Below, in pieces: positions 482-14,694 of a stretch of 64,000 nt of DNA; the first letter of the stretch is position 1, and each line of letters starts with the position of its first letter. Made by a program: the position numbers and the translations under genes. The notes beneath the pieces are model-generated. The model had not been told where the DNA came from. It did no database searches and saw only the letters and a program-made list of their open reading frames with translations. This DNA comes from Mycoplasmataceae bacterium (GTDB lineage Bacteria; Bacillota_I; Bacilli_A; Mycoplasmatales; Mycoplasmoidaceae). The DNA lies in the NCBI GenBank assembly GCA_031275175.1, contig JAISPD010000006.1, positions 1-64,000 on the forward strand, given 5' to 3'.

Positions 482-2697
482 TTAATCAGGAATTTGTTTG
501 GGAGTAAATATCAGGCGAGCATCTTTTACATGATTAATGGATTTTTTAATATTAGACTTAAGTGATGGTTCACTATAAAAGTTTTGAATGTCAGCAAAAT
601 CAATTTTAATTGCACCTTTAAGTGGTACAAGTTTACCATCAGCGATTGTGGTAATAAGTGCATGATGATCATCTAACTGACGTATTTCACGGGGATGAAA
701 AATATATTGTTGTACTTCGCGAATTGATTTTTCGCCAGTGGCCACACCATCGGATTGTCGTTCAGTAAATTCAAATGCAGGATTGGTACCAATGATATTA
801 GCAATACTCTCTGCACCTTTATCCTCACGTAATCGGTGAATAATATAAGTGTTACAATTTCCGACAATTCGAGCTGCAAAGTTTTCGCCAACTTGCGTTA
901 AATTACTTAGTGTTTGAATGGCATAAACTGTTTGGAAGCCAAAAGAACGTCCCTGTTCGTGTAATTCTGCAATATCTTGAGTGGCAAAAGAACCGAATTC
1001 GTCAAAAATGCAAAGCAGGTTATTACCAGGGTTTTTAACTCGTACACTTGGTAAATTTTGTTTTAAGTCAGCAATTAACATTCTTGCCACTTGATTGGAT
1101 TGAGTTTTCAAAGAGGTAGTATCCAACGACATTAATAAAATTGTAGGTTCATCAGATTGGATGAATGATTTTAACGTAGTACCGTGGCCAGAAATGACTG
1201 GAGCAGTCAAGGAGTTAATGTTTCGTAGATTTCTGAAGGTAGTTTTAATTTGTCGTAAAGCTTTAGATTTATCATCATCTTTAGCTACATCTAAATAGTC
1301 CTGAAATAATCGCTTTAATTCTTGGTTTTGCATTTCGTTAACAATTTCATCCTCGCTAAGCTTTTTTAAATTTTGTCTTGCATATTTAATACCATTAAAC
1401 ATCTTATCGATTTGAATATTCAAATTTTGAAGATTATTACATCATGCATCGGGAATAGGTTTAGAAGCATTATCATCAACAGCATTTCAAGCTTCTTCAC
1501 GAAAAATACTAAATTTGGTTGCAATGGTATTATCTAACACAGCTTTTTTAATTTTATCTTTGAGATTAACATAAAAATTAAAACGTTTTTCTAATTCACT
1601 TTTTTCATTTTTTCTAAAATATTTATTGACTTCCAACACTTCTTGAATCTTTTCTAAAGCAGCAAATTCAAATAAATTATCTAAAGTAATGGTGTAATCA
1701 GTTTTATCATTACGACTATGATTATTTTGTTTATATATTAATATTTTCGTAATGAGATTGATACAGGCCATTTCATTATCTTTGTAATAAATGGCACCAG
1801 GAGTTGTTTCTTCAAGCAACGAATAACGGCCAATTTCCATTAACATCGAAGTCACACTATTAACGTCTTTATCTGCAAAGGGGTTATAGACAAATCTTTC
1901 ATTTTTTTCCAAATCAAATTTTGGTGATCAACATTTAAGCACATAATTATTATTTTTAGTTAATATTTTTAAATCATTAAATAATCCAATGTCCCCTTTA
2001 CCATTCACAATAATAATGTTTTCTTTTTTAGCAACACCGAATTTAATAAACAACTCTAACGTGTTAGTTTTACCCCACCAGTAACACCAAACACCATGGT
2101 GCCACGGTTTAAAACGTCCTGTGGGATACATATACCATGTTCTTTGTTAATGATGACACCAATACTTTCATTGATTTCACTGCTTTGTAATGTTTTTAAA
2201 TATTTTTCTACTACAGATTTTAACAATTCATAATCTGTAAAATATAAATACAGCTTATTAAATGATTTGTTCTTGTTATTTCTATTTTTAGCTTTTGATA
2301 AAATTTCAAAAAAATATTGTTTCTTAAATGCTTTTGCAAATTTATTTATACGAGAATTATTAATAATTAATGCAACAGGTATTAATAATAAAATACAAAA
2401 ATTAATATTTAATGCAAGCGCATAAACCACATACACTCAAATAACTTGTTTAAAAAGAACGATATTTAAAATACAAAAAATAAATGTACCAATAAAAATT
2501 AATGTTAAACAAAATCCAAAAAATAACAATAAGGATAATATTTTTTTATTATGAAATCTTTTATTAACAAGTGCCTGATAATAACAACGCGTTACTAATT
2601 TACCAATTAAAAAACCAATAAAAGTTGGCACTAATAAAACATAACCTATGTATACAATGATTTCATCAAATATATTTGATTGTTGATTATTTTCCAT
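482..2697 (-). pseudogene. VirD4/TraG-type coupling ATPase, frameshifted in Walker A
   Basis: This is a type IV coupling-protein homologue, an inner-membrane ATPase that feeds DNA to a conjugation channel. Read through TGA as Trp it would be about 738 residues. Three hydrophobic segments (about residues 10-35, 52-82 and 88-113) precede the P-loop near residue 207 (GVTGGGKTNT) and Walker B (LLCIFDEFGSFA) near residue 560. At about 2075 the run after GTTACTGGT has four G instead of the five needed, so upstream reading is in one frame and everything after GVTGG in another. That is a one-base deletion, a sequencing error or a recoding site. The ATG at 2697 overlaps the stop of the upstream exported-protein gene by 11 nt, so translation is probably coupled. 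Family assignment is firm, functionality is not. Confidence 0.8.
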
Positions 2698-4699
2698 CTT
2701 TAGACCCTTTGCTTGTAATATCTTTGGCAGTAATCCACATTCATATTTTTTTAAAAATATTTTTGCTAGATGTTTCAATTACAGCTGCGTTTTTGATAGG
2801 AGTATTTGATTTTGATTTGCGAATTTGTTGTAGCTCTTTTTTGGAAACAGCAAATTTATTAACAAATTCTTGTTCAGTTTTGGATACTTTATTTCTATTT
2901 TTATAATGTCAAAGTCAAAAAATTCCACTGGTACTAATTAATAACAATCCGACAATAATTGCAATAATGATGCCGGCAAAATTGATGGGTTTTGGTTTGA
3001 TATCATATTTGGAAACATAGACAGTAAATTCATCGCTCGCGACTGAATAAGCATCGTTATATGTTGAAGTTGCAATGATTTTGAGGGTAATGGTGTAATC
3101 ATCGACTGTATCGATTTGATTAATTTTTAAAAAGCCATCTTGATCAATGGTAATTCACTCTGGTATTTTAACAGAAGAAGATAATTTAAATGCTACGTCT
3201 TGGGAAATAATTTCGCCAGTAACTGAATTCACAGTCGCTGAGACTGGAGCAGTTGCGATAAATCCATCTCTTGGATCAACATACAATTCATTAATAGGTG
3301 TATCAGTTAATATTATGTTTTTAATTTTTGGTGCAGGGTTACCAGTAATGGTAATGGTTACTTCAGCTTTATTAACACTGATTAACTGATTTTTGTTTGA
3401 TATCGCAACAACATCAAAGATTTGCCCACTAGGATAAACTTCTCAAGTATTAGGCTTGATACATAAATATCCACCAACGTTCACATATAAAAAATTGGGA
3501 GCAATATTAGTTGTTTCGTGATAATAAATATTATAGGAAACTGAAATATCAGCACCAATAGGTTGAATTTGACAAACAAATGGTAAAGCAGCAATTTTGC
3601 TGTAACCGCTGACTGTAGATATGCTAGTGGAATAACCGTCTACAATAGTAATTTTGTTAGGGGAAATGTCTGGTATTGGCCAATTTGTAGACAACAAGAT
3701 TAATTTGTTGATCGTAATGTCATCTAATTGTTGCAAATAATCATCAGTATATTTGTCAGGCTGTGCGGCCTTTAATTTGGCTCATAAGGTGCCGCCATCA
3801 TAATCCATAATTGGATTTGTTTCACCATTCCAAGAAAATCAAAAATTTTTAAATGGATTTGTAGGTGTATTTAAATTAAGGTTTTGAGCGCAGATTAAAC
3901 AATTTTGAATATCACCCACACTATTTGTTATTTGTAAAATGTAATGAGTTTCAAATAATGATGAACTAATTACGCGTTTGGGCGATATCCCAGTGCTAGC
4001 ATTACTTACAGTTCATATTGGTGTAGTATTTTCAATATTATAATTTTCATCACCAGCGAACAATTCAAGTTGGATCATTTCTTTTGGTTCTGGTCATGTG
4101 AACCAAAAATCACCTCTTGTAAAGAATACACGATATACATTATCGTCTCCCAATGCCTGTCGCTGACTTACTTTAGATAATCACGTGGTTTCTTGCACCC
4201 CTTCATTAGAATAAATATCAATTTCATTATTAAATAAAGTAACTATGTGAAATACCCCGCTAACACTGGATACACTGCCACCTTCAATTGTTAAAGTGCA
4301 CCCAGTTGTAAAATTTTTGTCATCGATAATTTCTTTATATTCATTCCCTGCAATGGGTATTTCAGGATAATCATCAAATACAATGGTTTTTAAAACGGTT
4401 TTATTATCAATTCCCTTCATATCAACAGAAATAGAACCATTAGCATATATTTCAAAATTATTATTTTGAACAACAATGAAACAATTAGTAGCGTTATTAG
4501 CCACAATTTCAATTGAACCTCATGAAAACTCATGATAATCATATTGTTGATTTGTTGGAACGTCTGTTAAACTATTATTCTTTAACAAATAATCGTGAAT
4601 TGTAACTGAATTAGCATTGGATAAACATATTAAATTAGTAGATGCTAATCCGCCCATGACAATTTTATTTATTTTATAAAATCTAAATTTACTTATCAT
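2687..4699 (-). CDS. Exported protein with C-terminal membrane anchor
   Basis: The 670-residue product has a positively charged start and hydrophobic stretch (about residues 11-28). A long Thr/Asn/Ser-rich extracellular region follows, with repeated motifs of the kind found in cadherin/Ig-like beta domains. One strong transmembrane helix lies at about 572-596, before a basic cytoplasmic tail of some 75 residues. Its ATG overlaps the previous gene's stop (ATGATAA) and its own stop overlaps the VirD4-like start, so the three form a tightly coupled operon. No family was recognised. A role in cell contact or adhesion during transfer is inferred only from the context. Confidence 0.7.
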
Positions 4700-6858
4700 G
4701 TGAAAACTGCTCGATTTTCAATGGCTGTATTGAAATCTACATGAGACAACCATCCGCCAGCGTCATACCAATGTCCACCTTTTGCATATTTACTATATGC
4801 TGTCATAATGTTATTGTTTTGATCGCGAATTCAGACCGACATGCCAAAAGTACTACGTCCCTCATTACTATCTCTACCAGTTGCATCACCAGCATTGTAT
4901 TCATTAGCTAATGAAAGATTAGAATAAACAATTTGGGATTTTTTAGCACGATAGATCGTAAAGTAAGTTGCGTAGTAATTCCAAATGTAACGATGATATG
5001 ATACATCACAATAAGCTCAATCACCCCCATATTTAAAAGCATCAGACGATTGAATCGCATAAATAAATTTGTAAGATGAGTAATAATATTGAATGGTATT
5101 ATCGATTAATGTTTGTAATCCAGTTGGTAATACTACTTCACCACCAGAACTTATTGTTAAAACTGTTTGTTTATTATTAGTAGATCATAAACATCCAGCA
5201 ATAAAATCGTTAATGTTATTAATGTAAGTATGTGTATAAGAAAAAGTAGTGCTAATTTGTCCACCATTAGATTTTTTGTTATCACTACGTGTAGATGAAT
5301 TGTAAACACCTCAACTGGTGTTGCAACCATATCATCCACCTGTTGAAACATCACGAGTTAATGTGACATTTGCATATTTTTCCTGCGGTAAATATTTTGA
5401 CATATTGTCAGCAAAAGCTTGATTATTGATAACTAAAGAAGTTGATCTACCAGTCGCTAAACTGCCAGGTTCTAAAACAATGTTGGAATTAACAGTAATG
5501 CTTGTTAAATTTGTAGTATTTAAAAAACAATTCTTACCAATTTTTTCTAAATAATGCGGCAAAACAATTTGTTTCAGTCCACTAATATTTTCAAATAAAT
5601 TAGACGCCAAAGCTTTGATATTAACGCCATCAAACGAATCTGGTAAAGTTAAATTACCTTGTTGAGTGTTTAATCATGTAGCAAATTTAGGTTTTAACGA
5701 AACAATTGTTCCTGTGGTAGGATCAAAGTTATACATATCGTTGTTTAATGTATCCATAACAACGACCGTAACATCTTGCGAAATGTATGTATTAATATTT
5801 ACTTGACTACGTGCATACACTTGGAAAGTAGACGAAGTATACGTATGAATATTATTAGAATTAACATGCAAATAGCCGTAACTATCGATATTAATGTAAT
5901 TAGGATTATTGACAACATAATAATCTACCTGTGGATTAGGTATTAAAACACCATTTTTATCATAAGCTGACGCGATAAATGGCATTTGAGATGTTCATTG
6001 AGCATTGTAGTTAACGACGGCCTGATTAAAAGAATTACTAAATTTGAGACTGTCAATTTGTGTATCATCAGCCAATATTGTTATTTGTATATCGTCAGAT
6101 GTTAATGTATACATTGGATCGTCATTAGCAGTAGCCCTAATTTGAACGATTAAATTCTGTCCGGTTGGACATTCGCCTGTCGTATATAAATATCCATCAC
6201 TATTTATTTTTAAATATTGATTTACAACTACATCATTAGTAACTAATTCATAAGTGGCATTATTTGGACTTCATAAACCTCTGCGATCCTGAGTTTCAGC
6301 AATTCATGCTTTTTCAGCATAAGTATTACTCTTCATTTTAGACACTAATTGTGTTGAACCCATTTGATATCAACGCATACCAATGACATCGGTTGGTACA
6401 TATTCAAGATTCAATTTGAAAGTTAAAAAATTTTGTGACATTTTAATAGAATCTGGCGAAGCATTAGTATGAAATTCTGCTTGAACGCTAAAAGTTGCGC
6501 CGTCTAAATCTGGAGAACAACCTTTATCAATCACGATTTGGTTATGATAATTAACATAAATTTGTTGCGGTGCCGCTTCATGAGTTGTTTCGTTTACAAT
6601 CACTCACGTAATTTCATGACTTGCACTGGTTGGATGGCTGCTAATTTTAATTTCTTCTAGAGCAACGGTTTTGTCATTTGTTACAGCATTTATTTCAATT
6701 GGGCCACCAGACAAACTAATTTCGTCAGCGAACGATAATTTTTTATTATCGGGATTAGTTGCTTGCATAATACCAGAAACGGTGCCACCAATTAAGGAAC
6801 CTGCACCCACAACAGGCAAGCCATACATTAAAAAACCTTTAACTATTTTATAGTTCAT
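4693..6858 (-). CDS. Large exported protein with BspA-type leucine-rich repeats
   Basis: The 721-residue product has an N-terminal hydrophobic segment (about residues 8-31) that could be a signal anchor. Beta-rich regions follow, then a BspA-like LRR patch near residues 400-480 (LFENISGLKQIVLP, IGKNCFLNTTNLTSI). The C-terminal third is Tyr/Trp/Asn-rich. Trp is mostly TGA. It is the first gene of a three-gene operon ending in the coupling ATPase. The start is the ATG after the palindromic promoter at 6869-6888. BspA-type LRR proteins are usually surface adhesins; that this one binds host or recipient cells is inference. Confidence 0.7.
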
Positions 6859-7785: not shown

Positions 7786-8532
7786 CTAATAACCCTGTTT
7801 TACGAGGAGATCAGACGGTTTTAACGGATAATTCACTGACTTAAGGCATTGTAGACGGGTAGATTTAGGTGTAATTGGTCAATTTGAGATGATTAATTCG
7901 GTTTTTCTACGCCCACCATGTCTTTTGCATGTGCCGCATGAATATTGCACTTCTATTTTGCTTATGTATCAATCTTTATATAAATTACGAATAAACTCAC
8001 AGTCGTTATAGCTAATTACAACTTTGATGCTAGAATCTAAACCTTTAAGATAGTTATGTAGCAGTTGATGATCCAAAGTATGTTGATATAAGCCTTTAAT
8101 GCCATAATACGGTGGATCAACGTAAACAATGCTATTAGGCGGAATTTGTACTTGGGAGTAATCTTGGTGCAGAATCATGCAAGATTTCAAAATTTGGTTA
8201 TATTGCGCAACTTTAGCAACTAATCCGTTACGTAATCTTGTTTGATAATAATCTAAAGCTAGTTTGGTCTTATTTTTGCCTAACCCCATATAGCTGGTCA
8301 AGTTTTTCTCAACATATTCCATTGTCAAAGGAAAAATATGATCATAATCATTAATAATTGTTTTACATCCCACCACGTTATGTACATTAACTCCTACGAT
8401 CCCACTACCAGAAAATAAATCCACAAATACAGAATTTTTATTTAAGTCGAATAATTTTATTAGTGTGTTTAACTTACGATATTTGCTGCCAACATATCGA
8501 ATAACCGGTTTAATTCGTTTGTTATCTTCCAT
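7786..8532 (-). CDS. Orphan D12-class N6-adenine DNA methyltransferase
   Basis: The 248-residue enzyme transfers methyl from S-adenosylmethionine to adenine N6 in DNA. RYVGSKYRKL begins the SAM-binding fold, FVDLFSGSGIVG (about residue 37) is motif I and VYVDPPYYG (about residue 138) is the catalytic DPPY motif. It continues through a TGA Trp codon near 7970, adding 61 residues to the apparent end. The C-terminus has a CxxC (YSCGTCKRHGG), possibly zinc-binding. Somewhat short for Dam/DpnM-like enzymes (about 270-280 residues). No restriction endonuclease is adjacent, so it may protect or mark the mobile element. Two tiny genes lie immediately upstream. Confidence 0.85.
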
Positions 8533-8838: not shown

Positions 8839-8913
8839 TCGCGGACACTAAAAACCCGCGCTAACCGCGTTCTTTTGTATCCTTTTCTTTGTAAGAAACA
8901 GATATGGCCGCGA
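8839..8913 (-). repeat. Stem-conserved repeat, copy A
   Basis: An outer stem TCGCGG/CCGCGA (8839-8844, 8908-8913) encloses a small CGCG hairpin (8857-8869) and a GTATC...GATAT hairpin with an inner TTCTT/AAGAA. Copy B at 10973-11041 shares the inner sequence (GCGTTCTTTTGTATCCTTTT) but has different, still complementary, stem bases. On the minus strand the outer stem is followed by a T-rich tract. It lies about 55 nt upstream of the 8784 gene start. It could be a leader RNA, an attenuator or a DNA-level recognition site. Confidence 0.55.
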
Positions 8914-8997
8914 AAAGAAAACAACAGGGTTGAGCTTCCTAACAGTTTTAAGTTAGTGATTATAAATTTAGTAAAACACATTTGCTTTTGCATCACC

Positions 8998-9406: not shown

Positions 9407-10087
9407 TTACCTTTCGTTTGTCTCTTCATTTGATTGAAAAGCATCTTTTGGAAATTGATTCCAACCACTTGCATTACGATAATCATCTGCAAGATCATTA
9501 GTTTCTACAACTACCATCCCTTGATTTAATTCTTCTTGAGTATTAAATAAAGTTCCAGTTAATAAGTTAGTAGAATAATTTACAACATGAGTTGAGTGAA
9601 TGATGAGCATACAAAAATTAACATCAGACTCAAAACATGAAACACCTAATGTATTTAAAGTGAGTGGGAATTCAGCGACCTGTAAATTTGTCAGACCTAA
9701 AAATGCATTAGAATCAACATTCATTAAATGACAGTCATTCTCATAATTTATGTATTCTAAATTTTGGACAAAACTAAGGTTTGTTGTCACATTACTAAAA
9801 GCATTAGTGCTAATAGAAATAATGTTAGCGGGAATTGTTAACGTGTCATATTGACTATAATCTGCCTTTAATCCTTCAGCGCTAAGACCTTCTAGAATGT
9901 TGTTTTCTATTTTTAAATAACTTGACGGTATTGGTTTCTTGTCGTTGCCACCACCGCCTCCTGTGCACATTGCAAATAATCCACAGATTAAAAAAAAGAA
10001 TATGACTATTGGCCAGATTCACCAGTACTTAGCTAAATATGTTGATCACTTAGATTTATTAGAATTCGTTCCATCAAATACTTTCAT
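9407..10087 (-). CDS. Membrane-anchored leucine-rich-repeat protein
   Basis: The 226-residue product has a short cytoplasmic N-terminus and a Trp/Phe-rich transmembrane helix (about residues 19-42). A Gly-rich linker CTGGGGG follows, then a BspA-like LRR domain (TLTIPANIISISTNAF, VDSNAFLGLTNLQV, LNTLGVSCF). The start is the ATG at 10087, upstream of the later in-frame ATG at 9970, because the helix lies between the two. A TATAAT 6-8 nt before this ATG implies a leaderless transcript. Promoter and ATG neighbour the palindrome at 10098-10117. It is probably a surface-exposed binding protein. Confidence 0.65.
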
Positions 10088-10117: not shown

Positions 10118-10912
10118 TTAAATATTTTTGTATACGTTGATGTATCGTTGACTATTATTATAATTTAATAATATTTCATCCAAAATTAATATCCGCCATG
10201 GCATTTTCAATTTATATTTGTCAGGAGCAGTGTCAAATATTGCTTTTAGAAATTTATATAAATTTCTTGGCACATAATATTCCAAGCTATTAAATAAACC
10301 CAATTGATAATCCCGGTTTAATTTACTAAATACTGTTTTTTTGATTTTTGAACCCCAATAGCGATGTTTAGTTTTTTGGGTTAATTCTATTTCAGCAGCA
10401 ATTTTAATATCAGTACCGTCAACATTTTTTAAATAAATAAAATCAACTGATTTATTAAACGATGCATATTTAAGATCAAGACTCGTCTCTATACCTTTAT
10501 TTTTTAAACTACTTCGATAATATTCCATCTCTAAGCCCAAATAATACCGATACGGATTATTTAATTTAAGATATTCCTTAATTACCCGCAGGCATATAAA
10601 GTTGTGTTCTAACACGACTGGTGATATGTTTGATTTAACCCAAGGAATTGATTCTCAATGACAATGATATTCTTGTATACCTACATTAGTCAATTTATAT
10701 ATGTTTACTGGTATTAATTTTTTTGCATTACCGATATGAAATTTATATTTTGTCATTCTAACATAACCCATTTTGGTCAAAGTTGACATATATCTAGTCC
10801 AATTACGGCCAACTACAGGGAATTCTAATTTAAGCATTTTAATATTAACCAGCTCTCATTTTCCGATAAAATAAAGTAATTTGTAAAAATCGGTTTCATT
10901 TTCTCATTTCAT
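10118..10912 (-). CDS. Replication-relaxation/relaxosome-type winged-helix protein
   Basis: The 264-residue product begins with a winged-helix-like region (RNWTRYMSTLTKMGYVR..., VNIYKLTNVGIQEY, about residues 35-85). A C-terminal domain has a nuclease-fold-like pattern, SVDFIYLKNVDG then KIAAEIELTQKTKHRYWGSK. This is the layout of Replic_Relax/MobC-like proteins of plasmids and conjugative elements, thought to work on DNA near oriT or replication origins. The ATG at 10912 lies within the palindromic promoter. Two TGA Trp codons precede the next in-frame ATG at 10837. The gene faces away from the large hairpin cluster 200 bp upstream. Family call rests on motif pattern only. Confidence 0.45.
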
Positions 10913-10929
10913 ACCTAAATTAAAGTATA
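10910..10929 (-). promoter_or_regulatory. Palindromic promoter/operator, copy 3
   Basis: CATACCTAAATTAAAGTATA differs from copy 1 by one base. Its TATACT -10 on the minus strand lies 12 nt before the ATG at 10912, so the site overlaps the start of transcription and translation. Confidence 0.6.
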
Positions 10930-10972
10930 TATCAAATATCATTAATTAAATAAAATTATCCTAGTATAAAAA

Positions 10973-11041
10973 CATGCCCGCTAAAATCCGTCATAAGCGT
11001 TCTTTTGTATCCTTTTCTTTTTAAGAAAAGATACGGGCATG
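10973..11041 (-). repeat. Stem-conserved repeat, copy B
   Basis: An outer stem CATGCCCG/CGGGCATG (10973-10980, 11034-11041) encloses a CGCT/AGCG hairpin (10979-10999) and a GTATC...GATAC hairpin (11007-11034). The inner segment matches copy A (8839-8913) without gaps, while the outer stem bases differ but stay paired. On the minus strand a TTTTTATA tract follows the stem. It lies 61 nt upstream of the 10912 gene start. Confidence 0.55.
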
Positions 11042-11106
11042 GAAAAGAAAAGCAAAGAATACTTTTCTTTGTTGGATTTCTTTTGATGAAAAAATTTAAA
11101 TAAAAC

Positions 11107-11460
11107 AAAAAGCAAAAATAAGATTATTGTCATTTATTTTTGCTTTTCCCTCAACCAAATAAAAAGAAGTCGCCAAGAATTGGCGTGCGCTTCTTTTTGG
11201 AGTGAAACGAGTTTTTCTTATATTGACACCGTGAAAACAACACGGTCGGCAAATGATTATTAATAATATGCCGACGTTCAATTGCCTTCTCCATATTAGC
11301 AATTGAACGTGTCTTTTTAACCACCACACACCACCACCCCCACACATATATAAATACTATGGTTGAGGGTGGGTAGTCAGGGCTTTCGATTGGTTTTTAA
11401 GAAAGCCCTGACTACCCACCCTCCTCTCGTAAAATCAGCATGTGTGAGGGGTGGTGGTGT
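11107..11460. repeat. Cluster of seven consecutive inverted repeats
   Basis: The hairpins are: 14-bp perfect (11108-11121/11134-11147); 9+5 bp (11161-11175/11181-11198); 6 bp (11228-11246); 7 bp (11245-11251/11269-11275); 12-bp perfect (11274-11285/11299-11310); about 20 bp with one bulge (11328-11347/11440-11460); and nested inside that, 23-bp perfect (11365-11387/11401-11423, 13-nt loop). The last two are G/C-rich and stand out from the AT-rich surroundings. Short ORFs here are by-products of the symmetry. Candidate roles are transfer origin, single-strand replication origin, or a recombination region. Confidence 0.8.
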
Positions 11461-12239
11461 AAAAATAAAATTGTTAGTTAATTGTCATCATAATTGTTAT
11501 TAATATATTTTGATTAAAAATATAACGACAAAATCCCAACATATAGTTGGGTAATTCTTACAATTTGTTTTTGTGCAAAAATTGCACTTGTTTTTTGATA
11601 TTGAATTTTAATTCATTCTATAGCCCGATAAATAGTTATGCTACCGTCTTGATTTGAACATTTGCATCAAATGCAGTGACATTCCGATTTTACAAAGTTC
11701 AGTTTCAACGCTAAGCTCATCCTAGGAACTCTCTCGATGTCTTTAAGAACAGTGTCTGTTTGTTTCTGTACGCTCGAATTATTATAAAATCTACAATACA
11801 AGTTTCTAAGCAACACACTTTTTTAAAATCTATAAACTTACTTAACAAACCAACACAAGTGACTATATAGGGATTGATGGGTAATAGCCCGTAGACTAAG
11901 AAACATAATTTATTAGTGTTTAATGCTGCCATATATAGTATTCGATTTTCACCTAGACAATTTATGAGTAAACCGACTACAAGCCGGGAACATAAATTAC
12001 TTTACTAAAATATAGCGTTTGTTAAGATCAATTATCAAAGAACAATCGGTGGATTGGACAAAATTTATAACTTCTTATAAACTATGGTTGTAGCCATTAC
12101 CGTCCACCATTGATATTATACCTTTATAAAAGTAATTGCTATTCATTAATTTTTACGTAAAAATTTGTAATTTTTTGAAAAAATTAAAAATAAAAACTTG
12201 GTGACGTAGTGTCAAATTTGGGTTTAAATATTCGCACAA
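11461..12239. other. Non-coding stretch before the recombinase
   Basis: No convincing gene is present. A short hairpin CCCAAC/GTTGGG lies at 11535-11551. A distant inverted pair GGTGGA...TCCACC spans about 12049-12105. A 71-codon minus ORF (11717-11932) has no SD or recognisable content. AT content rises towards the recombinase start. Confidence 0.5.
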
Positions 12240-13202
12240 ATGCAGGTATATAATGTAGGCGAAATGTCTGAAAATATTATAAAAATAGAGGACTTATTAG
12301 AAATTTGCAGATCCAAGCCAAGTTCTACTGCTTATTATCAAGTTCAAAAATTTTTAAATTGTTTTACCGGTAATTTAGGGAAAGATGTTAGTTTAGCGAA
12401 TAGCTTAATAGCCAAAATTGCCAATAACGCTAGTGCACATAGATATACGAGCACTTTAAAATGAGCATATCAATTGTTTTACGGTAAAAAATTTGTTACC
12501 AGTTTAATTTTAAACCGTGCAAATGAAGTGTCTAAATTCACAACAAGATTAGATTACAATCAAATTCAATTAATCAGGCAAAAGTTTCTATTATGAATTA
12601 ATACATGCTCAAATAATTTACTTAAAAATCGAATTGAAAGTGTAAAAATGAGTAGATTAAGAATTTATCATTGCTTTGAAGCATTGTTAAGTTCTGGAAT
12701 GCGAATAGGTGAATTGACTAGTATAAAGTTTAATACTAGTCCTGCCCATAGATTTATTTACTCAAAATTAAATAGTCAGCAATATGCCGAAATAATAATT
12801 AATACTGAAAAAACATGTAAAAAGAGAGAAATTTATATTCCATTAGAAACGTATAATTTTTTTACAAAAAATATTAGAAAATATCGATTTCAAAAATTTA
12901 CAATGAGTAAAGATTTAATTACAGTAGGATTTCTAAAATTTAGAAAATGAGCTAAGCTTCCGTTTAAATTTACTGCCCACGTACTGCGACGAACAAAAGC
13001 AACGCTAATGCATGAGGGTGGAGTAGGAGTATCAAATATTGCCATGGTGTTAGGTAATACTGCAAGAGTCGTTATGGAATATTACATTTTATCATCGCAA
13101 GCAAATTTTGATGCATGTGAGATTGGAAATGCAATGGCTAACGGTAAAGTTATTAAAAATAGCAATATATTCTTAACAAATCATTATGACATTAAGAAAT
13201 AA
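12240..13202 (+). CDS. Tyrosine recombinase/integrase
   Basis: A 320-residue site-specific recombinase with four TGA Trp codons. The N-terminal SAM-like DNA-binding half is followed by the catalytic half: first Arg in SGMRIGELTSI (R155), HxxR in TAHVLRRTKA (H247, R250), LGN in place of the usual LGH (272-273), and the nucleophile Tyr in VVMEYYI (281 or 282). An Asn at the His/Trp position is unusual but tolerated in some members. The start may instead be the ATG at 12264, which has a weak TAGG before it. It is probably the integrase of the accessory block. Confidence 0.85.
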
Positions 13203-13309: not shown

Positions 13310-13321
13310 TCACTTATAGGA

Positions 13322-13389
13322 GTAGTCAAGTATTTGAGTGGTAGTTATAAAAATAATTGGTGGTAGTGAAGTGTTTTTATGGGGGTAGT
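13322..13389. repeat. GTAGT array with about 22-bp spacing
   Basis: GTAGT occurs at 13322, 13341, 13363 and 13385 (spacings 19, 22, 22), mostly preceded by G-rich bases (GGTAGT). Two helical turns of spacing suggests binding on one DNA face. No gene overlaps it. Confidence 0.45.
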
Positions 13390-13478
13390 CAATTAATAAT
13401 AATTTAAAAAAATAATATGAAATTTATCAAAAAAGTGCTTCACAAAGTATAAAAATTCACCACTTAAATAGATAAACT

Positions 13479-14605: not shown

Positions 14606-14694
14606 TGGCGGAGACGATGAGACTCGAACTCATGCATCGCATAGCGACCTAACACCTTAGCAGGGTGTCCTCTTAACCACTTGAGTACGTCTCC
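14606..14694 (-). tRNA. tRNA-Ser(GCU)
   Basis: An 89-nt class II tRNA. The GGAGACG/CGTCTCC acceptor is followed by encoded GCCA, the anticodon loop CTGCTAA gives GCU, and there is a long variable arm and GTTCGAG T loop. Its 3' end faces the accessory block, the usual geometry for integrase targeting. No directly repeated copy of the 3' end was found at the block's far end. Confidence 0.95.

Follow-up and report, generated by a model that had tools for sequence, protein, structure and literature searches.

How conjugative transfer starts in wall-less bacteria is an open question, no relaxase or oriT having been reported for mycoplasma ICEs (PMC6030558) and no relaxase for the pSci plasmids of Spiroplasma citri (PMC2386487). 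The question is raised by an intergenic stretch (11107-11460) of the 64,000-nucleotide DNA analysed here (the window), in which a dense cluster of hairpins adjoins a gene for a 274-aa relaxase-like protein. The host is a mollicute, as deduced from the reading of TGA as tryptophan, which joins broken frames into long genes. What the cluster does, and whether it belongs to the adjacent gene, is considered below from its structure, its conservation and its genomic context.

Structure and conservation of the hairpin cluster

All seven hairpins (H1–H7) described in an earlier note on this DNA within 354 bp were recovered, essentially where that note had placed them. H1 (11108-11147) is AT-rich with 14-bp perfect arms; H2 (11161-11198) is imperfect (9 bp + 6 bp; AAAAAGAAG...CTTCTTTTT, with inner CGCCAA/TTGGCG) and terminator-like on the minus strand; H3 (11228-11246) pairs over 6 bp (ACCGTG/CACGGT), H4 (11245-11275) over 7 bp at its base (GTCGGCA/TGCCGAC) and H5 (11274-11310) over 12 perfect bp (ACGTTCAATTGC arms). 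The outer stem H6 (11328-11460, arms 11328-11340 and 11448-11460) encloses the core hairpin H7 (11365-11423, minus strand; GAGGGTGGGTAGTCAGGGCTTTC), in which 23-bp perfect arms frame a 13-nt loop. The three perfect hairpins announced with arms of 12, 14 and 23 bp are H5, H1 and H7. Other statements of the earlier note need adjustment. The nesting of the last hairpin stands, while the enclosing stem comprises 13 perfect bp and reaches the announced ~20 bp only with one bulge. Two GC-rich hairpins had been seen on an AT-rich background, and those that are strongly GC-rich are H6 and H7 only, with GC content peaking at 0.48 at the core versus about 0.2–0.3 around it. The distance of ~200 bp given to the MobC-like gene becomes 165 bp from the gene start (10942) to the first hairpin and about 420 bp to the core.

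The density of the cluster is exceptional within the window. In the whole 64 kb, perfect hairpins of similar strength number only 11, and the strongest three all fall in one 316-bp stretch of the cluster. Four strong hairpins were observed in the region against a mean of 0.32 and a maximum of 3 in shuffles, and the nested H6+H7 pair has a predicted ssDNA fold of -48.8 kcal/mol (z = -11.8 versus dinucleotide shuffles). No family of Rfam reached threshold in the cluster (weak miRNA-type matches to the bare hairpin were set aside as chance), and no pAD1-like strong set of direct repeats was found near the core. The BLASTN comparison with plasmid origins that had been recommended gave no credible match of the cluster to plasmids, and no known plasmid origin was matched at the DNA level.

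The core was sought, together with the protein, in 36 genomes of the same genus and then across the order (320 genomes for the protein, 298 for the hairpin). Homologs of the 274-aa protein are encoded in 3/36 genomes of the genus, namely the source genome (G000) and two others at 47% and 29% identity, and the core hairpin (GGGTGGGTAGTCAnGG...CCnTGACTACCCACCC) occurs in exactly these three, with one copy each; no further carrier appeared among the 320 genomes for the protein or the 298 for the hairpin. The two relatives are G033 (JAITNN010000021.1, Mycoplasmataceae bacterium Po218_bin18) and G035 (CATAWQ010000004.1). In every carrier, the core is found upstream of the 274-aa gene, its orientation is the same, and no other hairpin of the element is as strong. 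Compensatory change, proposed earlier as a check, was found once: core position 14 forms a G-C pair in the window and a C-G pair in both relatives, a covariation seen across only three sequences. The outer stem also encloses the core in all three, each time with a different, unrelated sequence that still pairs, and a stem like that observed was reached by shuffled flanks in 2, 4 and 0 of 2000 cases (G000, G035 and G033, respectively). Additional hairpins between core and gene are present here and, with other sequences, in G033.

Conservation of the flanks is one-sided in the three-way alignment. The conserved side is TATGGTTGA by the 5′ arm on the plus strand, which corresponds on the minus strand to TCAACCATA (11358-11366), immediately 3′ of the core; the opposite flank is not conserved. 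This is the pattern expected of a nic region, and the conserved flank is the candidate for it.

Further sequence features were noted around the cluster. Two copies of a 52-bp sequence (CGTTCTTTTGTATCCTTTTCTTT...) lie in the window at 8870-8921 and 11000-11051; they are 87% identical, and short GC-rich inverted repeats flank each of them. In the remainder of the divergent intergenic region (11480-12200), short blocks (CACCTAGA...ATGAG...CCGACT) resemble G035 (L005, 2700-3120), and a structured RNA, without Rfam match, is possible there. The sole other find of the viral and genome scans, a Streptomyces-like (OV450) hairpin GTGGGTAGTCAC...GTGACTACCCAC upstream of a gene (L024, 3674-3709), was rejected as likely a coincidence or an operator.

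The relaxase-like protein and its Spiroplasma relatives

The gene next to the cluster (10118-10942, minus strand) encodes, under genetic code 4, a divergent MOBC/Replic_Relax-like protein of 274 aa with a wHTH-like N-terminus followed by an H...D...ExE.T.K motif. The sole NCBIfam match of each of the three homologs is NF041423 (MobC-family replication-relaxation), collinear and with E-values of 0.004–0.046, at scores of 13–16 bits that lie below the cut-off of 200 and hence outside MOBC family membership as defined by profile score. The Pfam profile Replic_Relax (PF13814) did not match the 274-aa protein, its search across the class was uninformative, giving no match either for candidates or for controls, and tblastn of the protein against plasmids gave no credible match.

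Searching the phylum with NF041423 brought up Spiroplasma plasmids (E = 4e-7). Their gene pF, related to that of the 274-aa protein, is found in 42 Spiroplasma plasmid records, all non-mobilizable according to MOB-suite, and is annotated as replication-relaxation in pSKU146; a replication-relaxation-like gene of S. citri was noted in 2021 (PMC8140453). Profile comparison of the 274-aa family with 14 Spiroplasma pF proteins gave E = 1.4e-4 and an hhalign probability of 53%, with the invariant H, D, E-x-E, T and K residues in register. H113, D167, E184, E186 and K190, invariant in the three homologs, align with Spiroplasma H84, D119, E133, E135 and K139.

MOBC relaxases are described as PD-(D/E)XK nucleases, and TraX of pAD1 has a winged helix in its N-terminal part (PMC12857230). 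The Spiroplasma pF profile weakly matched the catalytic region of EcoRV (E = 0.18). The secondary structure would fit a layout of winged helix plus restriction-endonuclease fold, but the AlphaFold models are of low confidence (pLDDT 51 and 37), too poor to add weight, and Foldseek retrieved only PadR and FokI at E-values of 0.01 or worse. The 274-aa protein is proposed to be a MOBC-type relaxase that would nick the putative oriT.

An integrative element probably spread over two contigs

The hairpin cluster and the relaxase-like gene are embedded in a mobile element. On the far side of the cluster lies the gene of a tyrosine recombinase, the proposed integrase (12240-13202, plus strand; 320 aa; PF00589, E = 3.8e-6), 50% identical to the recombinase of the G033 ICE. 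The right attachment site (attR, 14606-14622, plus strand) coincides with the 3′ end of tRNA-Ser(gct); it is a direct repeat of 17 bp (TGGCGGAGACGATGAGA), whose partner copy is on contig C4 of the source genome (C4:78293). Downstream of the 274-aa gene, all on the minus strand, are genes for an ICE-conserved membrane LRR protein (9407-10087; 226 aa; PF13306), a Dam-type adenine methyltransferase that is probably cargo (7786-8532; PF02086, E = 4e-18), an ICE-conserved LRR protein (4693-6858; 721 aa; PF13306), a further ICE-conserved protein (2687-4771; ORF of 694 aa) with one TM-like segment near its C-terminus, and a VirD4/TraD coupling protein (482-2778; PF10412, E = 1e-13). Both LRR proteins have homologs in G033 and G035, where the 694-aa protein is found at 47–48% identity. 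The coupling-protein gene consists of two frames (2056-2778 and 482-2131), split at 2056-2131, about the Walker A motif, while its homologs in G033 and G035 are single frames. This frameshift reflects either real decay or an assembly error, and because of it the source copy may not transfer by itself.

The segment of C4 from 78293 to the contig end (91695) encodes a VirB4 ATPase (E = 1e-113), a VirB6-like membrane protein and a pilin-like protein (Mbov_0397, 0396 and 0395 families). Profile scores were 45.7 bits for NF045849 (cut-off 40), 44.3 for NF045889 (below 70) and 380 for NF045975 (below 590), so that these are relatives of the Mbov_0395/0396/0397 families, mostly under the equivalog cut-offs, and form a pore set of the MICE type. 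The att repeat on both contigs and the pore genes of C4 indicate that C4 and the window each carry a portion of a single element, roughly 28 kb long; we infer the C4–C21 contig junction from the att repeats and the gene order, without overlap of contig ends. With integrase, att repeats, coupling protein and VirB4 all represented, the element is an ICE. In place of the DDE (Mutator-like) transposase and random insertion of other mycoplasma ICEs, a tyrosine recombinase and tRNA att sites were found, the cargo part of C4 lying outside the Pfam scan.

Repeats of other kinds occur near the ends. ATTGGTTAGG motifs recur near both ends of the part on the window contig (120-132, 204-216, 14248-14260 and 14365-14377), some followed by inverted CCTAAC; the TTGGTTAGG repeats at 120, 204, 14248 and 14365 were at first suspected to be att and were dropped when the tRNA-Ser repeat came to light. 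Immediately after the recombinase gene (13321-13392), the sequence G(G/A)GTAGT(C/T/G)A occurs in four iteron-like copies with 20–23 bp spacing, which have GGTAGTCA in common with the core hairpin; they were not seen in G033 and are possible arm-type sites.

The relatives offer two further versions of the element. In G033, a homologous ICE is whole on one contig (153551-176507), between two copies of a 25-bp repeat that comes from the 3′ end of tRNA-Gly, and contains the recombinase, the 274-aa homolog, VirD4 and VirB4. In G035, a 26-kb contig carries circularly permuted transfer genes, ParA, the core hairpin and the 274-aa homolog; tblastn found no recombinase on it and no other Rep was present among the ORFs scanned with Pfam. 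The permuted order, ParA and the lack of a recombinase indicate that this contig is probably a plasmid. Elsewhere in the genus, distant VirB4-like genes (22–27% identity) in G018 (L028) and on contig C16 of G033 (L029) may mark further conjugative elements.

The oriT reading, its rivals and known systems

The locus has the arrangement expected of an oriT, namely an inverted repeat close to the putative relaxase gene of a mobile element and conserved together with it. Of the three candidates put forward in the earlier note, the best supported is the first, an oriT next to the Replic_Relax/MobC-like gene, given the compensatory conservation, the perfect co-occurrence with the gene and the ICE context with VirD4 and the VirB4 of the partner contig. 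We consider it quite probable that the cluster is the oriT of a MOBC-type ICE in a mollicute chromosome.

Some of the same features could have another origin. If the circular form used the cluster as a replication origin (dso/sso or theta), the MobC-like protein would be a replication initiator instead of a conjugative relaxase, or both; the name Replic_Relax spans relaxation and plasmid replication alike, single-strand origins typically contain arrays of hairpins, and no other Rep accompanies the gene on the plasmid-like G035 contig among its Pfam-scanned ORFs. This is nevertheless unlikely: in each of the three elements the gene is found together with VirD4, VirB4 and pore genes, an ICE that is integrated has no need of a permanent replicon, and the family resemblance is to MOBC, it being understood that replication and transfer functions can coexist. 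Very unlikely is a role as transcription terminators, attenuators or structured regulatory RNA between the two genes. T-runs are present on the minus strand at H1 and H2, and H2 scores as a terminator, but the core is devoid of a T-run, conserved in sequence and enclosed by a second stem, and no Rfam family passed its threshold. Moreover, the flanking genes (10118-10942, minus; 12240-13202, plus) diverge and neither ends in the cluster, so the hairpins are not their terminators, in agreement with the earlier opinion that the cluster goes beyond terminators.

A folded-ssDNA or cruciform site (attC- or CTX-like) for the adjacent tyrosine recombinase had also been put forward, the recombinase gene being 800 bp away and the core being a long hairpin. 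The results disfavour it to the point that it is highly improbable: the att repeats are in tRNA 3′ ends (that of tRNA-Ser here), far from the hairpin, and retention of the hairpin in the recombinase-free, plasmid-like G035 ties it to the relaxase-like gene and not to integration. The probability is close to negligible for a partition centromere or an operator for a DNA-binding regulator, for example if the winged-helix domain controlled its own gene. An operator would be in keeping with inverted repeats that lie upstream of the gene for a protein with a winged-helix-like N-terminus, but arms of 18–23 bp inside a second stem far exceed operator size and only one core copy exists per element.

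For the favoured oriT, a coherent pathway can be proposed. The tyrosine recombinase would excise and integrate the element at the tRNA-Ser 3′ end, where the att repeats are found. Once the element is circular, the winged-helix N-terminus of the MOBC-like protein would bind the hairpin region, with core hairpin H7 as the proposed recognition hairpin, and the nested GC-rich structure (core plus outer stem) would expose the nic region in single-stranded or cruciform shape to nicking by the PD-(D/E)XK-like active site. The best candidate for this region is the conserved TCAACCATA just 3′ of the core on the minus strand; the strand and the direction of transfer are likewise presumed. The VirD4 coupling protein would then take the nicked strand to a reduced pore of the mycoplasma type, made of Mbov_0395/0396/0397-like proteins (VirB4, VirB6-like and pilin-like). 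Probable accessory roles (lagging-strand start, promoter or terminator functions) are left for the five smaller hairpins on the side of the gene, which are the least certain part of the scheme.

Individually, these parts are of known kinds (MOBC-like relaxase, oriT and ICE). In the open-licence papers searched, no element was found that joins a tRNA-targeting tyrosine recombinase and mycoplasma-ICE pore genes to a MOBC-like relaxase with a nested-hairpin oriT. The resemblance to mycoplasma ICEs (ICEA of Mycoplasma agalactiae and others) concerns the Mbov_0395/0396/0397-family pore genes, the VirD4 gene and a size of about 23–28 kb. ICEA differs by its DDE (Mutator-like) transposase and random integration, in contrast to the tRNA-targeting tyrosine recombinase and MOBC-like gene found here; its relaxase and oriT have not been identified (PMC6030558). 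With MOBC relaxase–oriT systems, which are used by Gram-positive conjugative plasmids and ICEs (PMC12857230), the locus has in common a predicted winged helix, a putative motif pattern of a restriction-endonuclease-like active site and the proximity of relaxase-like gene and proposed oriT. The sequence similarity to TraX of pAD1 and MobC of CloDF13 is very weak, however, and TraX binds five direct repeats 70–120 bp from nic, whereas a nested hairpin, but no strong set of direct repeats, was found here.

A parallel in layout is offered by the S. citri pSci plasmids, which have VirB4, VirD4 and Mbov_0395/0396-type genes and in which a related small gene is immediately preceded by a cluster of inverted repeats. 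This inverted repeat region (IRR) upstream of pF was suggested as a possible transfer origin, no relaxase being found (PMC2386487). At 11/13 Spiroplasma loci examined, two to four strong hairpins were present within about 270 bp upstream of pF. The pSci elements are plasmids, in contrast to the ICE described here, and their hairpin sequences are unrelated to GGGTGGGTAGTCA, so that the layout is what both have in common. A tentative generalization, which we hold to be plausible but somewhat short of probable, is that a hairpin cluster and a small MOBC-like nuclease form a general module for transfer initiation in mollicutes, common to tRNA-targeted ICEs and many Spiroplasma plasmids typed as non-mobilizable, with a relaxase that would read structure (nested hairpin or cruciform) over fixed sequence. 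The gene, the conserved hairpin and the whole mating apparatus occur together in ICEs, in a layout that would also account for the IRR long known from Spiroplasma plasmids. This suggests that MOB-suite typing misses these plasmids, and it makes the question of transfer initiation directly testable.
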